A stretch of DNA of 64,000 bases from assembly GCF_000725125.1 (NCBI RefSeq), contig NZ_JFCB01000026.1, positions 1 through 64,000 on the forward strand. The letters are read 5' to 3'. Source of the stretch: Streptomyces toyocaensis (GTDB lineage: Bacteria > Actinomycetota > Actinomycetes > Streptomycetales > Streptomycetaceae). The notes beneath the pieces were generated by a model. It ran no database searches and was not told where the DNA came from. It saw only the letters and a list, made by a program, of their open reading frames with translations. A program made the translations under genes and the position numbers. This document shows, piece after piece, positions 41,810 through 47,131 of the stretch (position 1 is the stretch's first letter; every line of letters starts with the position of its first letter).

Positions 41810-42029
41810 GGCCGCGCCCCGGCCGGGTACACGCGCCGTGGCCGGGACTGTCCGCAGCGTGCTGTGACCTGCGCCGCTCTCCCGTGGCGCGGCGTTCTGT
41901 GCGAGAGTGGCGCACCGGTCGGACGGGTTGCGCCGCGTCCCGGAACGGACGTCCCACCGGGTCTGTCATCCGGACGGGCCGTCCGCGCAACTCTCCCCCG
42001 AGGGCACAGCACACCAAGGACGGTGATTC

Positions 42030-43592
42030 ATGGCCGACGGCGCCATGACCGCGACGTTCCTCGCCGTGATCGGCGGGGCGTCGCTGCTCGCCGTCACCGC
42101 GCGACGGCTCCGGCCGAGCGGCAGACTGCCCTCGTTGGAGGGCTGGGCGCTCGCCGACCGGAGCCTCGGGGCCGGCTGGACCTGGCTGCTGCTCGGCGGG
42201 ACGATCTACACGGCGTACACGTTCACCGCCGTCCCGGGCCTGGCGTACGGCAACGGCGCGCCCGCCTTCTTCGCCGTGCCGTACACAGTGATCGTCTGCC
42301 CGCTCGCGTTCGTGCTGCTCAGCCGGTTGTGGAGCGTGGCCCGACGGCACGGCTACATCACCGCCGCCGACTTCGTGCGCGGCCGGTACGGCTCGCCGTC
42401 GCTGGCGCTGGTCGTCGCGCTGACCGGCATCCTGGCGACGATGCCGTACCTGGCGCTCCAGTTGCTCGGCATCCGCGCGGTGCTCACCGCGGGCGGACTG
42501 TATCCGAGCGGTGCCACCGGGGACCTGGTGATGGTGGCCGTGTTCGCGGGGCTGGCCGTCGCCACCTACCGGCACGGGCTGCGGGCGCCCACCGTGATCT
42601 CCGCGCTGAAGGCGGTGGCGGTGTTCGTCTCGCTCACCGCCGTGTGCTGGCTGGTCCTGCGGCGCTTCGGCGGGTTCGGCGCGGTCTTCGACGGGGCGGC
42701 GCGCGCCCTCGGCGGCACGGACGCCGCCCACTCCCCGCTGCTGCTCACGCCGGAGCAGCAGCCCGCCTACGCCACCCTCGCGCTCGGCTCCGCCCTGGCC
42801 CTGCTGATGTACCCGCACGTGCTCACCGCCGGGTTCGCCGCCGACGGGCCGCGCACCCTGCGCAAGGTGTCGGCGGGGCTGCCCGCCTGGACCGCGCTGC
42901 TCGCCCTGTTCGGGTTCCTCGGCATCGCGGCCCTGGCCGCCGGGGTGCGGGCCCCCGAGGGCGGCGCCGAGGCGGCGGTGCCGATGCTGGTCGACCGGCT
43001 GATGCCGGGGCCGCTGGCCGGGCTCGTGTTCGGCGCGATCGTCGTGGGCGCGCTGGTTCCGGCGGCCGTGATGTCGATCGCAGCGGCGACCAGCTTCGTA
43101 CGGAACGTGTACGTCGAGTACGTCCATCCGACGGCCACACCGAAACGGCAGGTACGGGTCGCCAAGGCGGTGTCGCTGACGGCCAAGGTCGGGGCAGTGG
43201 CGTTCGTGTTCGGGCTGCGCGACCAGGACGCGATCAACCTCCAGTTGCTCGGCGGGGTGTGGATCCTGCAGATCTTCCCGGCGGTCGCGGTCGGGCTGTA
43301 CACGCGGTGGCTGCATCCGCGGGCGCTCCTCGCCGGGTGGGCCGCGGGCATGGCCGCCGGAACCTGCCTGGTGGTGCGGGAGGGATTCTCCTCGATCGTG
43401 CCGCTCGGCACCGGCACAGGACCGGTGGAGATCTACGCCGGGGTCGCCGCCCTGCTGCTGAATCTGACCGTCGCGGTGGCCGGCACCGTGGCCCTCGCAC
43501 GCCTCGGCGTCCCGCGCGGCGCCGACGCCACCGACCTGCCGTCCCGCCTGACGGCCGGGCGACGTCCGGAGACGGGAGCGAACAACACGTGA
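42030..43592 (+). CDS. Sodium:solute symporter (MctP-like)
   Basis: A 520-residue SSS-family permease with about thirteen helices. It starts MADGAMTATFLAVIGGASLLA and contains WALADRSLGAGWTWLLLGGTIYTAYTF and MPYLALQLLGIRAVL, closest in feel to monocarboxylate uptake permeases. The small DUF3311 partner that often goes with MctP is absent. Its stop overlaps the sigma-factor start in GTGA (43589-43592), so an SSS transporter and a sigma factor are translationally linked. Substrate is not assigned. Confidence 0.88.
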   Translation: MADGAMTATFLAVIGGASLLAVTARRLRPSGRLPSLEGWALADRSLGAGWTWLLLGGTIYTAYTFTAVPGLAYGNGAPAFFAVPYTVIVCPLAFVLLSRLWSVARRHGYITAADFVRGRYGSPSLALVVALTGILATMPYLALQLLGIRAVLTAGGLYPSGATGDLVMVAVFAGLAVATYRHGLRAPTVISALKAVAVFVSLTAVCWLVLRRFGGFGAVFDGAARALGGTDAAHSPLLLTPEQQPAYATLALGSALALLMYPHVLTAGFAADGPRTLRKVSAGLPAWTALLALFGFLGIAALAAGVRAPEGGAEAAVPMLVDRLMPGPLAGLVFGAIVVGALVPAAVMSIAAATSFVRNVYVEYVHPTATPKRQVRVAKAVSLTAKVGAVAFVFGLRDQDAINLQLLGGVWILQIFPAVAVGLYTRWLHPRALLAGWAAGMAAGTCLVVREGFSSIVPLGTGTGPVEIYAGVAALLLNLTVAVAGTVALARLGVPRGADATDLPSRLTAGRRPETGANNT

Positions 43593-44194
43593 GACGCAGA
43601 CAACAGCACCGGACCACCCTGCCGCTCGCCCCGGCGCCGCCCCCGGCCGCGGCCGTGGCCGGACCGCCGGTCCCCGCCGTCACCGACGCGGCCGACCTGG
43701 AGCGGGAGGCCGGCGTCGCCCGCCTCTTCGAGCTGCACTACTCCTCGATGCTGCGGCTCGCCGTGCTGCTCGGCGCCGACGACCCGGAGAACGTGGTGGC
43801 CGAGGCGTACTACCAGATCTACCGCAAGTGGCGGCGGCTGAAGGACGTGGCGGCGGCGGAGGCGTATCTGCGCTCCACCGTCTGCAATCTGACCCGGATG
43901 CGGATACGCCACCTCCAGGTCGCCCGCCGGCACGAGGAGCATCCGCGGGGCCCGTCCGACGAGACCGTGGCCTCGGCGGAGAACACCGCGCTGCTCCACG
44001 ACGACCAGCGGGTGCTGATCGACGCGCTCCAGCACCTGCCGGCCCGGCAGCGCGAGGCGCTGGTGCTGCGGCACTGGCTCGGACTGAAGGAGAGTGAGAT
44101 AGCCGCCGCGATGGGGATATCCCGTGGTTCCGTCAAGACGCACACCTCGCGCGGCATCGCCGCGCTGACCCAGGCGATGGAGACCCGGCGATGA
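43589..44194 (+). CDS. ECF-type RNA polymerase sigma factor
   Basis: A 201-residue group 4 sigma factor of the SigE/SigL-like actinobacterial type. After a Pro/Ala-rich 40-residue N-terminus come region 2 (LFELHYSSMLRLAVLLGADDPENVVAEAYYQIYRKW) and region 4 (LPARQREALVLRHWLGLKESEIAAAMGISRGSVKTHTSRGI). The GTG start overlaps the symporter stop and its own stop overlaps the next gene in ATGA. The overlapping downstream gene is the natural candidate for its membrane anti-sigma factor. Confidence 0.92.
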   Translation: MRRRQQHRTTLPLAPAPPPAAAVAGPPVPAVTDAADLEREAGVARLFELHYSSMLRLAVLLGADDPENVVAEAYYQIYRKWRRLKDVAAAEAYLRSTVCNLTRMRIRHLQVARRHEEHPRGPSDETVASAENTALLHDDQRVLIDALQHLPARQREALVLRHWLGLKESEIAAAMGISRGSVKTHTSRGIAALTQAMETRR

Positions 44195-44556
44195 GGCATC
44201 ACGATACGACTCCGTCGCGTGGCACCGACCCGGACCGCACGGACCACGACCGGGCCGAGCCGTCCCGTCCGCCGGGTGCGGAACGCACCGAACGGGAGCT
44301 GCGCGACGCCCTGCGGGCGCTGGCCGGCGGGGTGCTGCCGGACCCCGACGCCTACCGCACGGCGCGCGGTGAGTGGCTGCGCCGGGAACGCCGGCGGCGG
44401 CTCGTCCTCACCGTGCTCGTCGCCGTCGTCTTCGCGCTGGCCACGCTGATCGGCCTGTGGGTCCTCAACCAGGCTCCCTCGGACCCCGGTGTCATCTTCT
44501 CCGGCGACGGTGCCGCGGCGGCCGACGGTCCGTCATCCCCGCGGCCGGGGCCCTGA
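44191..44556 (+). CDS. Small membrane protein, possible anti-sigma factor
   Basis: A 121-residue protein with a long hydrophilic cytoplasmic part (ERELRDALRALAGGVLPDPDAYRTARGEW), a basic stop RRERRRR, one helix (LVLTVLVAVVFALATLIGLWVL) and a short extracytoplasmic tail. It overlaps the sigma gene by four bases. This size and topology fit an anti-sigma factor, but there is no zinc HxxxCxxC motif, so the role is inferred from position. Confidence 0.65.
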   Translation: MRHHDTTPSRGTDPDRTDHDRAEPSRPPGAERTERELRDALRALAGGVLPDPDAYRTARGEWLRRERRRRLVLTVLVAVVFALATLIGLWVLNQAPSDPGVIFSGDGAAAADGPSSPRPGP

Positions 44557-44589
44557 TTGCGGCCCCCTTCGGCCGGGAACCCGCACTCC

Positions 44590-46371
44590 GTGCACCGTAT
44601 CGAGGACTACGCGCTCATCGGCGACGAACAGACCGCTGCCCTGGTGGGCGCGGACGGCTCGGTCGACTGGCTCTGCCTGCCCCGCTTCGACTCGGCGGCC
44701 TGCTTCGCCCGGCTGCTCGGGGACGAGGACAACGGGCACTGGCGGATCGCACCGGCCGGTGCGGACCGGTGCACCCGGCGCTCCTACCGCGAGGACACCC
44801 TCGTCCTGGACACCGAGTGGGAGACCCCGCAGGGGGCGGTGCTGGTCACCGACCTGATGCCGCAGCGCCACGAAGCACCCGACCTGGTGCGGATCGTGCA
44901 GGGCGTACGGGGTGAGGTGACCGTCCGCAGCACGCTCCGGCTGCGTTTCGACTACGGCTCGGTGGTGCCCTGGGTGCGCAGGGAGGACGGGCACCGGGTG
45001 GCGGTGGCCGGACCGGACTCGGCGTGGCTGCGGAGCGTGCCGGAGGTGCCCACCTGGGGCGAGGACCGTTCCACCGTCTCGGAGTTCACGGTGAAGGAGG
45101 GCGAGCGGGTCGCGTTCGTGCTCACCTGGCACCCCTCCCACGAGCCGCGCCCCGCACTGGTCGACCCGTACTCCTCGCTGCGGCAGAGCGTGGAGGACTG
45201 GCGCGCCTGGGCGGCGCACTGCTGTTACGACGGCCCGTACCGGGACGCGGTCGTCCGGTCGCTGATCACGCTCAAGGCGCTCACCTACCGCCCGACGGGC
45301 GGCATCGTCGCCGCGCCCACCACGTCGCTGCCGGAGGAGCCGGGCGGGGTGCGCAACTGGGACTACCGGTTCTGCTGGCTGCGCGACTCGACGCTGACCC
45401 TGAAGGCGCTGCTGGCCGCCGGGTACCAGGGCGAGGCGGAGGCCTGGCGCAACTGGCTGCTCCGCGCGGTGGCCGGCGACCCGGCGGACCTCCAGATCAT
45501 GTACGGGCTCGCGGGCGAGCGGCGCCTGCCGGAGTTCGAGGTGCCGTGGCTGTCGGGCTTCGGCGGCGCCACGCCGGTCCGGGTGGGCAACGACGCGGTC
45601 AACCAGCTCCAGCTGGACGTGTACGGAGAGGTCGTGGACTCCCTCACCCTGGCCCGGCGCTCGGGGCTGTCCGCGCAACCGGACGTGTGGGCGCTGCAGT
45701 CGGTGCTGCTGGAGTTCCTGCGCACGGCCTGGCGGCAGCCGGACGAAGGACTGTGGGAGGTGCGCAGCCGCCGCCGGCACTTCGTGCACTCCAAGGTCAT
45801 GGTGTGGGTGGCCGCCGACCGCGCGGTGCGCGCCATGGAGGACGACCCGGACCTCGAGGGGGACCTGGACGGCTGGCGGGAGCTACGGGACGAGGTGCAC
45901 CGGGAGGTGTGCGCCAAGGGGTACGACCCCGAGCGGAACACCTTCACGCAGTCCTACGGCTCGCGCGAACTCGACGCCGCGCTGCTGCTGATCCCCCGGG
46001 TGGGGTTCCTGCCGCCCGACGACCCCCGGGTGCTCGGCACCATCGAGGCGGTCCGCGCGGAACTGGGGCAGGACGGGCTGGTGCGCCGCTACACCCCGGA
46101 CGCCGGTCCCGTCGACGGGCTGCCGGGACAGGAGGGCACGTTCCTGGTGTGCTCCTTCTGGCTGGCGGACGCCCTGCACATGACCGGGCGGACGAAGGAG
46201 GCACGCGCACTGTTCGAACGGCTGCTGGGGCTCGCCAACGACGTGGGTCTGCTGGCGGAGGAGTACGACCCGGTCGGCGGCCGGCTGCTGGGCAACTTCC
46301 CGCAGGCGTTCAGCCACATCGGCCTGGTGAACACCGCCCTCGCCCTGTTCACGGACGAGGGGGCAGGATAG
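44590..46371 (+). CDS. Glycoside hydrolase family 15 protein
   Basis: A GH15 (glucoamylase/trehalase type) enzyme of 593 residues from the GTG at 44590 (VHRIEDYALIGDEQTAALVG). The N-terminal beta domain with GSVDWLCLPRFDSAACFARLLG is followed by the (alpha/alpha)6 barrel containing NWDYRFCWLRDSTLTLKALL and, toward the end, EEYDPVGGRLLGNFPQAFSHIGLVN. There is no signal peptide, so it is intracellular; actinobacterial members often hydrolyse trehalose. A TTG at 44557 directly after the previous stop is a less likely start. It continues the overlapping gene run. Confidence 0.9.
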   Translation: MHRIEDYALIGDEQTAALVGADGSVDWLCLPRFDSAACFARLLGDEDNGHWRIAPAGADRCTRRSYREDTLVLDTEWETPQGAVLVTDLMPQRHEAPDLVRIVQGVRGEVTVRSTLRLRFDYGSVVPWVRREDGHRVAVAGPDSAWLRSVPEVPTWGEDRSTVSEFTVKEGERVAFVLTWHPSHEPRPALVDPYSSLRQSVEDWRAWAAHCCYDGPYRDAVVRSLITLKALTYRPTGGIVAAPTTSLPEEPGGVRNWDYRFCWLRDSTLTLKALLAAGYQGEAEAWRNWLLRAVAGDPADLQIMYGLAGERRLPEFEVPWLSGFGGATPVRVGNDAVNQLQLDVYGEVVDSLTLARRSGLSAQPDVWALQSVLLEFLRTAWRQPDEGLWEVRSRRRHFVHSKVMVWVAADRAVRAMEDDPDLEGDLDGWRELRDEVHREVCAKGYDPERNTFTQSYGSRELDAALLLIPRVGFLPPDDPRVLGTIEAVRAELGQDGLVRRYTPDAGPVDGLPGQEGTFLVCSFWLADALHMTGRTKEARALFERLLGLANDVGLLAEEYDPVGGRLLGNFPQAFSHIGLVNTALALFTDEGAG

Positions 46372-46375
46372 GGAC

Positions 46376-47131
46376 ATGGATCTTGGACTGAAGGACCGGG
46401 TGTACGTCGTCACCGGGGCGACCCGCGGGCTGGGCCACGCCTGCGCGCGGGAGCTCGTCACCGACGGCGCGAAGGTGGTCGTCACGGGGCGGGAGGAGGA
46501 GTCCGTCGCTCGGGCGGCGTCCGCGCTGGGGCCGCACGCGGCCGGGGTGGCCGTCGACAACGCCGACCCTCAGGCGCCGGCGCTGCTGATCGCGACCGCG
46601 CGGGAGCGGTTCGGGCGCTTCGACGGCGTCCTCGTCAGCGTCGGCGGGCCACCGCCGGGCTTCGTCGCCGACACCACCGACGAGCAGTGGCAGTCGGCGT
46701 TCGAGACGGTGTTCCTGGGCGCCGTGCGGATGGCCCGGGCGGCCGCGGCCGAGCTGGGCGAAGGGGGTGTCATCGGATTCGTGCTGTCGGGGTCGGTGCA
46801 CGAGCCGATCCCCGGACTGACCATTTCCAACGGGCTGCGGCCCGGGCTGGCCGGGTTCGCCAAGTCGCTGGCGGACGAGCTGGGGCCGCGCGGGGTGCGG
46901 GTGGTGGGGCTGCTGCCGGGGCGTGTCGACACGGACCGGGTGCGGCAACTGGACGCGATGTCCGCGGACCCCGAGGCCACACGGCAGGCCGCGGAGTCAC
47001 GTATTCCGCTGCGGCGGTACGGGACGCCGGAGGAGTTCGGGCGGACGGCGGCGTTCCTGCTGTCGCCAGCGGCGTCCTACGTGACCGGCGTGATGCTGCC
47101 GGTGGACGGCGGTTTCCGGCACGGGTTCTGA
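46376..47131 (+). CDS. SDR-family protein lacking the YxxxK motif
   Basis: A 251-residue short-chain dehydrogenase fold: TGATRGLGHACARELV nucleotide motif and the C-terminal VTGVMLPVDGGFRHGF. Where the catalytic YxxxK should stand (after the Ser in VLSGSVHEPIPG) the chain reads LTISNGLRPGLAGFAKSLADELG, with no Tyr/Lys pair at the right spacing. This motif is shared by a known atypical SDR group, so it may be an NAD(P)-binding non-classical reductase. It starts four bases after the GH15 stop. Convergent with AmaP. Confidence 0.85.
   Translation: MDLGLKDRVYVVTGATRGLGHACARELVTDGAKVVVTGREEESVARAASALGPHAAGVAVDNADPQAPALLIATARERFGRFDGVLVSVGGPPPGFVADTTDEQWQSAFETVFLGAVRMARAAAAELGEGGVIGFVLSGSVHEPIPGLTISNGLRPGLAGFAKSLADELGPRGVRVVGLLPGRVDTDRVRQLDAMSADPEATRQAAESRIPLRRYGTPEEFGRTAAFLLSPAASYVTGVMLPVDGGFRHGF

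Follow-up and report, generated by a model that had tools for sequence, protein, structure and literature searches.

Transporters of the SSS/SLC5 type are tied to a regulator in the RpuS/RpuR and CrbS/CbrA-type SLC5/STAC kinases (PMC9100948, PMC7918813; here and below, statements on published systems refer to the parts of the cited papers that were available). RpuS/R controls the operon of the pyruvate symporter MctP and has a DUF3311 gene among its targets, and in Sinorhizobium fredii mctP and a DUF3311 gene share this control (PMC9100948). A like connection is seen in Streptomyces toyocaensis, in a stretch of 64,000 nucleotides (contig NZ_JFCB01000026.1, positions 1 to 64,000) that we refer to as the window. 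In the SLC5/STAC kinases the SLC5 part is fused to the kinase and acts via a response regulator, whereas the window has a free symporter gene that overlaps the gene of an extracytoplasmic function (ECF) sigma factor, followed by a gene for a small membrane protein. We propose that these three genes (42030-44556, called the module below) probably form an autoregulated ECF unit for the uptake of a monocarboxylate, itself probably pyruvate, with the small protein as a membrane anti-sigma factor. The gene order, the overlaps, the promoter code, the way in which this code tracks the transporter gene cstA, and a narrow predicted regulon were all computed; the protein families suggest the substrate class and the anti-sigma role. 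The features of the module are as follows.

41965-41991, + strand: predicted sigma-dependent promoter, GTCATCC-N13-GCGCAAC, bipartite with a fixed spacer, 38 bases 5' of the symporter start
41894-41919, - strand: possible decayed remnant of a divergent cstA-side promoter, which by eye resembles the GTGCAAGAGTTGC end of the relatives' copy
42030-43592, + strand: SSS/SLC5 symporter gene, MctP-like (SSF domain above the Pfam cut-off; match to the MctP model below its cut-off)
43589-44194, + strand: ECF sigma factor gene, SigE-like actinobacterial type (GTG start; TIGR02937 above cut-off)
44191-44556, + strand: gene for a one-span membrane protein of 121 residues, the proposed anti-sigma factor (3' neighbour of sigma; predicted helices)

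The symporter and sigma genes overlap by the four bases GTGA, and the sigma and small-protein genes by the four bases ATGA. A preliminary description of this DNA had joined these three genes and two further ones downstream by two 4-base overlaps and two short gaps; on re-reading, its coordinates, overlaps and gaps are all correct. The host genome is 7.3 Mb in size, and the nearest rows in the tree described below are Streptomyces.

The module is well conserved. Genome contigs were scanned with an alignment of the sigma factor, and the best 80 of 271 relatives were taken as the locus set (L numbers are locus labels). These loci come from Streptomyces, Actinomadura, Nonomuraea, Rhizohabitans, Microtetraspora, Acrocarpospora, Sinosporangium, Phytohabitans, Dactylosporangium and Pseudonocardia, genera that we take to represent four orders, and the order symporter-sigma-small protein is kept across five actinomycete families. 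The small-protein gene lies directly 3' of sigma in 78 of the 80 loci, and a symporter gene lies upstream of sigma on the same strand in 74. The remaining six loci lack an intact upstream symporter: L050 and L106 start at sigma, L109 and L110 retain only pieces of a symporter, L124 remnants and L127 nothing. The overlaps were counted with a script that picked the in-frame start closest to the upstream stop, and the start codon was exactly at the 4-base overlap in 65/73 measurable loci for the symporter/sigma junction and in 76/78 for the sigma/small-protein junction. On these counts, the overlaps are kept more often than expected by chance.

A family search with the small protein found it in 28 of 150 genomes, at 30 places, one of which is the window. 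Sixteen of the 30 places were fetched, plus the sigma paralogue from the window's own genome; in 14 of these (L033-L046) the module is present with the gene order symporter-sigma-small protein, and in the other two (L047 and L048, both weak matches) it is not. A profile search with the small protein through 396 genomes of the phylum gave four strong matches, followed by a number of short and weak ones that were not used. A sigma match above 270 bits is present in 28 of 150 same-genus genomes, with one more at 211 bits and the next genome at 154. The module is therefore patchy within the genus, since a strong sigma match occurs in only 28-29 of 150 genomes.

The symporter consists of 520 amino acids. 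It matches the SSF domain PF00474 with 50.7 bits (cut-off 22.8), and has this domain only, with no fused STAC or kinase domain found by Pfam, so that it is not an SLC5/STAC sensor kinase. Against the model for the monocarboxylate permease MctP (NF046076) it scores 500 bits, which is below the cut-off of 625. The window genome encodes a second MctP-like protein, 46% identical to the symporter, whose gene lies directly 3' of a DUF3311 gene. Judged by these relationships, the symporter is most likely an MctP-like monocarboxylate transporter, with pyruvate as the most likely substrate.

The sigma factor matches the general ECF model TIGR02937 over residues 44-197 (63.6 bits, cut-off 42.9) and the region 4 model Sigma70_r4_2 (60.9 bits, cut-off 25.7); the Pfam model for region 2 is absent among its matches. 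With the SigE-family model TIGR02983 it reaches 126.5 bits, below the cut-off of 141.55. The window genome also has an ECF sigma paralogue, about 40% identical, located 1.1-1.3 kb from a second SURF1 homologue (L049, 8259-8807 and 10836-10075), and the same pairing is seen in another genome (L047, 5190-5594 and 6716-7468). In Dactylosporangium sucinum, a second sigma copy (L127, 6968-7540) is located behind other genes, without symporter, small protein or cstA.

Promoter motif and the divergent cstA operon

Enough DNA upstream of the symporter was available in 74 loci, namely 73 relatives and the window. In 58 of these, a divergent cstA gene faces the symporter gene. A DUF3311 gene lies between the two in 48 of the 58, and ybdD follows behind cstA in 51. 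The families were confirmed by Pfam in the members tested (PF02554 for CstA, PF11755 for DUF3311 and PF04328 for ybdD). The divergent protein of three tested relatives scores 849-874 bits with PF02554 and is thus a member of the CstA family; the same three reach 850-862 bits with the CstA equivalog NF011590, where the cut-off is 1188. In Escherichia coli, CstA transports pyruvate specifically and is driven by H+ (PMC7730263).

Most of the relatives have one copy of the motif GT[AC][AC][AT]CC-N13-NNGCAAC pointing into each of the two operons. A symporter-side copy is present in 60/74 loci and a divergent-side copy in 59/74. When the spacer was set to 6-12 or 14-20 bases, no motif was found near the symporter in the 74 loci, and only a spacer of 13 gave matches. 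The divergent copy occurs in all 58 loci with a divergent cstA and in none of the 13 without cstA. In three further loci (L100, L101 and L104) cstA has moved to the other side, and a copy of the motif stands ahead of the moved gene in all three. Only one of them, L104, has also kept the divergent copy, and here DUF3311 still faces it. A moved cstA with a motif copy ahead is also found in L038, which is outside the set of 74. Since the pattern was widened after these loci had been viewed, the spacer control and the link to cstA outweigh the raw counts. In two loci, the downstream-moved cstA is followed by a P-loop ATPase with the sequence GKGGVGKT, ArsA/Get3-like by eye (L101, 10671-11660; L100, 10763-11752).

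Counted from the AAC of the first box, the GCAAC of the second box is 16 bases away, and its CAAC 17. A distance of this size between the boxes is ECF-like. A standard scan of the region for sigma-70 promoters and terminators gave nothing, and is uninformative for ECF promoters.

The window locus has neither cstA nor DUF3311. Neither a protein search nor a family search found CstA in the window genome; the family search detected it in 7 of 14 control genomes. There is no intact divergent copy of the motif in the window. A tree was made from 71 of 81 rows (the 80 loci and the window), leaving out L050, L106, L109, L110, L124 and L127 (no usable symporter), L052 (near a contig end), and L081, L087 and L105 (N runs or a truncated symporter). 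On this tree the window is one of nine rows that form a supported set, and all nine lack cstA at the locus.

Away from these positions, about 1 megabase of DNA has five matches, of which three are the moved-cstA copies and two are in L112 and L084. The first of these two (L112, 8040, + strand) is a full motif before a frame that by eye is SARP-like, in a Streptomyces that has the module and no cstA at the locus; the second (L084, 7954, - strand) is a further copy. The window genome has seven exact matches, six of them in coding frames, and only the one at 41965-41991 lies outside a codon-biased frame. Allowing one mismatch gave 84 matches, compared to 52 in a backward control, and for this reason only exact matches were weighed. 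A stricter pattern was searched in ten module-bearing genomes, and gave 25 matches as against 7 in the backward control. Twelve of the 25 are at the module or its moved cstA, with at least one in each of the ten genomes. Of the other 13, 12 are in codon-biased frames and one (L213) is in a frame that looks like the gene of a GntR-like regulator. No second recurrent promoter was found in the ten genomes, and on this evidence the regulon looks confined to two operons.

These results back the tie between sigma factor and transporter that had been suggested in the preliminary description. The sigma factor would recognize the motif and transcribe its own symporter-sigma-small-protein operon. In the majority of the relatives it would also transcribe the cstA operon on the divergent side, usually DUF3311-cstA-ybdD. 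In the window, the unit's own promoter would be the only remaining target that was found. Autoregulation together with control of cstA is the simplest reading, because the sigma gene is the only regulator gene seen between or within the two operons. It is very unlikely that the motif is instead an operator for an unlinked transcription factor: the two copies do form a wide inverted arrangement that a dimeric regulator could use, and promoter status is predicted from the motif, but the motif has a two-part shape with one fixed spacer and lies 38 bases before the start codon, a copy points into each operon and stands ahead of each of the three moved cstA genes, and no other regulator gene was seen between the operons in the loci with called frames.

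The small membrane protein and the signal input

The small protein of the window scores above the cut-off for no family. It had previously been noted as a single-span protein of 121 residues without a zinc anti-sigma motif, and this holds for the whole family: HxxxCxxC is present in 0/46 members, and only three have any cysteine at all. The structure model has a helix at residues 30-47, followed by a long helix at 52-93 that runs through the membrane. The span is preceded by a run of arginines, and is followed in the window by a tail of only 28 residues. The most conserved parts of the family are the juxtamembrane stretch and the span (mean entropy 0.95 and 0.96 bits respectively), ahead of the cytoplasmic helix (1.22 bits); residues 94-103 (1.64 bits) and the outer tails (2.64 bits) are less conserved. 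The conservation of the juxtamembrane stretch and the span suggests a partner inside the membrane. A profile search of PDB with the small protein gave four weak matches, the best with an E value of 0.018, which were taken as chance. Its gene position and predicted helices make the small protein a candidate membrane anti-sigma factor. Its basic, helical N-terminus would keep the sigma factor at the membrane.

One locus is informative about the partner. In L124 (Sinosporangium), the symporter and small-protein genes are both reduced to remnants as judged by eye, and the sigma and cstA genes are open. The cstA-side motif is intact, and there is a near match on the sigma side (GTCGACC-N13-GCGCAAC). 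An anti-sigma factor that is informed by the symporter is favoured because symporter and small protein have been lost together in this locus, and because the membrane parts of the small protein are conserved. We hypothesize, in line with a suggestion of the preliminary description, that the symporter is the sensor: it would touch the membrane helix of the anti-sigma factor, and binding or flux of its substrate would free the sigma factor, leading to a greater uptake capacity. In its full form, this means that a symporter of the cytoplasmic membrane is the receptor for an ECF factor, and that its transport cycle is read via the helix of a minimal anti-sigma factor, inducing both the symporter itself and a second pyruvate transporter. 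We put this forward tentatively, as a possibility.

It is also possible, while falling short of probable, that sigma factor and small protein make up a conventional sigma/anti-sigma pair, which responds alone to an envelope or metabolic signal, and that the symporter is a regulated product and not a sensor. The promoter evidence fits this equally well, contact between symporter and anti-sigma factor is only hypothesized, and ECF factors often lie in autoregulated operons together with a target gene. Against it stand the 4-base coupling of symporter and sigma seen in 65 of 73 measurable loci and the joint decay of symporter and small protein in L124 with sigma and cstA kept. In addition, the small protein conserves its span as well as its juxtamembrane part, and the 28-residue tail leaves no room for the usual sensor domain.

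The joint decay in L124 with sigma retained also fits another role of the small protein, as a subunit that regulates or assembles the symporter, with the activity of the sigma factor set by its own level alone via autoregulation, and the lack of a convincing anti-sigma family match or of any fold match is in keeping with this. We consider it unlikely, given that the small protein follows sigma and not the symporter (with the overlap in 76 of 78 loci), that a basic stretch is conserved on the cytoplasmic side of the span, as would suit a protein that holds a sigma factor, and that the usual small partner of this symporter family is DUF3311 (PMC9100948).

Several observations weigh against the proposed autoregulated unit with a membrane anti-sigma factor. 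The structure model of the small protein has a pTM of 0.34, and a structure search of PDB with this model gave zero matches. When the 46 members were compared with anti-sigma family models, only CnrY was matched, by one of the 46 at an E value of 0.084; 36 of the 46 instead match DUF3040, a family of unknown function, weakly (best E value 6.1e-5). The partner is not always needed, since sigma occurs without an intact small protein in L124 and alone in L127. The assignment of pyruvate leans on the relatives and on the MctP-like symporter, because the window genome lacks CstA, and the symporter is itself under the MctP cut-off. On the promoter side, a symporter-side match to the pattern is absent in 14/74 loci, including all three Pseudonocardia, and weaker matches exist in some of the 14 (for example L096 and L097). 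L051, L093 and L103, which belong to the window's own clade, are also without a symporter-side match; it looks as though self-control weakens once cstA is lost. The frame test used for the regulon is blunt, because it also flagged 3 of the 12 matches at the module (L193, L198 and L211). Finally, the state of cstA changes five times on the best tree, with three of the changes forced by supported branches, and a test of independent pairs for cstA against the divergent motif found three supported pairs, of which two agree and one shows no difference. We do not claim significance, because the loci are related and the changes in cstA too few.

The neighbouring GH15 and SDR genes

Two further genes follow the module.

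GTG 44590 (or TTG 44557) to 46371: GH15 gene, Glyco_hydro_15 domain with a trehalase-like N-terminus
46376-47131: SDR gene, 4-base gap after the GH15 gene, SDR domain match

By eye, the SDR protein has a TGATRGLG-like cofactor motif, and the YxxxK that we take to be the usual catalytic motif is apparently missing.

The preliminary description treated all five genes as one operon. This stands for symporter, sigma and small protein, which are conserved and tightly overlapped, and is unsupported for GH15 and SDR; a five-gene operon was rejected, as these two genes do not travel with the module. Only two of the 14 module loci L033-L046 also have GH15 and SDR alongside. In ten same-genus genomes without an intact module, in which the family search had found no small protein, SURF1, GH15, SDR and AmaP are direct neighbours in nine, and the tenth has GH15 alone. 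Within the fetched flanks, GH15 is present in 34/80 loci. None of the 16 loci from outside Streptomyces is among them; 14 of these 16 carry the module, and neither GH15 nor SDR was found in the fetched flanks of the 14. On this comparison, GH15 and SDR belong to a SURF1-GH15-SDR-AmaP neighbourhood and not to the module. In one of the nine same-genus genomes with all four neighbours (L220), SURF1 and GH15 are separated by a stretch whose product matches the small protein over 38 residues (3436-3323), and which is probably left over from a module that was lost. With this leftover, at least one absence of the module looks like a loss.

Comparison with known systems

In a limited literature search, neither a symporter-sigma-small-protein operon nor an ECF factor with control of MctP or CstA was found described; the ECF classification may list such a context. 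For many actinobacterial ECF factors the signal is not known. In the literature searched, no account was found of the control of pyruvate or monocarboxylate uptake in such actinomycetes. In this module, an ECF factor comes with a predicted promoter code and with a regulon that is predicted to be very small, and its own operon encodes a candidate sensor. Natural deletions are also available, in that cstA has been lost in the window's clade, and symporter and small protein have decayed in Sinosporangium.

In the available parts of the literature, single aspects of the module have counterparts. A review of non-canonical ECF factors reports ABC transporters near group ECF257, with no symporter named there (PMC8999054). 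In S. venezuelae, a one-span protein of 102 residues encoded next to an ECF gene has been suggested as an anti-sigma factor of unknown family (PMC11256431). With ECF sigma 2 of Arcobacter butzleri, the most up-regulated product is a sodium:solute symporter; that regulon is broad, with 35 genes up, and no symporter-sigma-small-protein operon or CstA is described there (PMC3445524). BtsS/BtsR-BtsT and CstA of Escherichia coli resemble our proposal in having dedicated control of a CstA-family pyruvate transporter, but control is by the two-component system BtsSR, or by CRP and Fis for CstA, and no ECF factor is named (PMC7730263, PMC10653868).

In CnrY/CnrX/CnrH, the anti-sigma factor wraps two helices around the ECF factor, and a separate sensor switches it; that sensor, CnrX, is a binder of cobalt or nickel and no transporter (PMC4598750). 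The sequence relation between CnrY and the small protein is unconvincing. In FecA-FecR-FecI, as in the proposal, a transporter signals via a one-span protein to an ECF factor that induces transport genes (PMC9249621). FecA, a TonB-dependent receptor, sits in the outer membrane and has a periplasmic signalling domain (PMC9249621), whereas the candidate in the module is a symporter of the cytoplasmic membrane, with a short-tailed small protein. No FecI/FecR-type TonB-dependent receptor with a signalling domain was found by Pfam in the seven window proteins tested. Should the symporter indeed be the receptor, the sigma factor would take transport itself as its input. The module would then be a Gram-positive relay of transporter, anti-sigma and sigma factor that works without an outer-membrane receptor, a kinase or a separate sensor domain.

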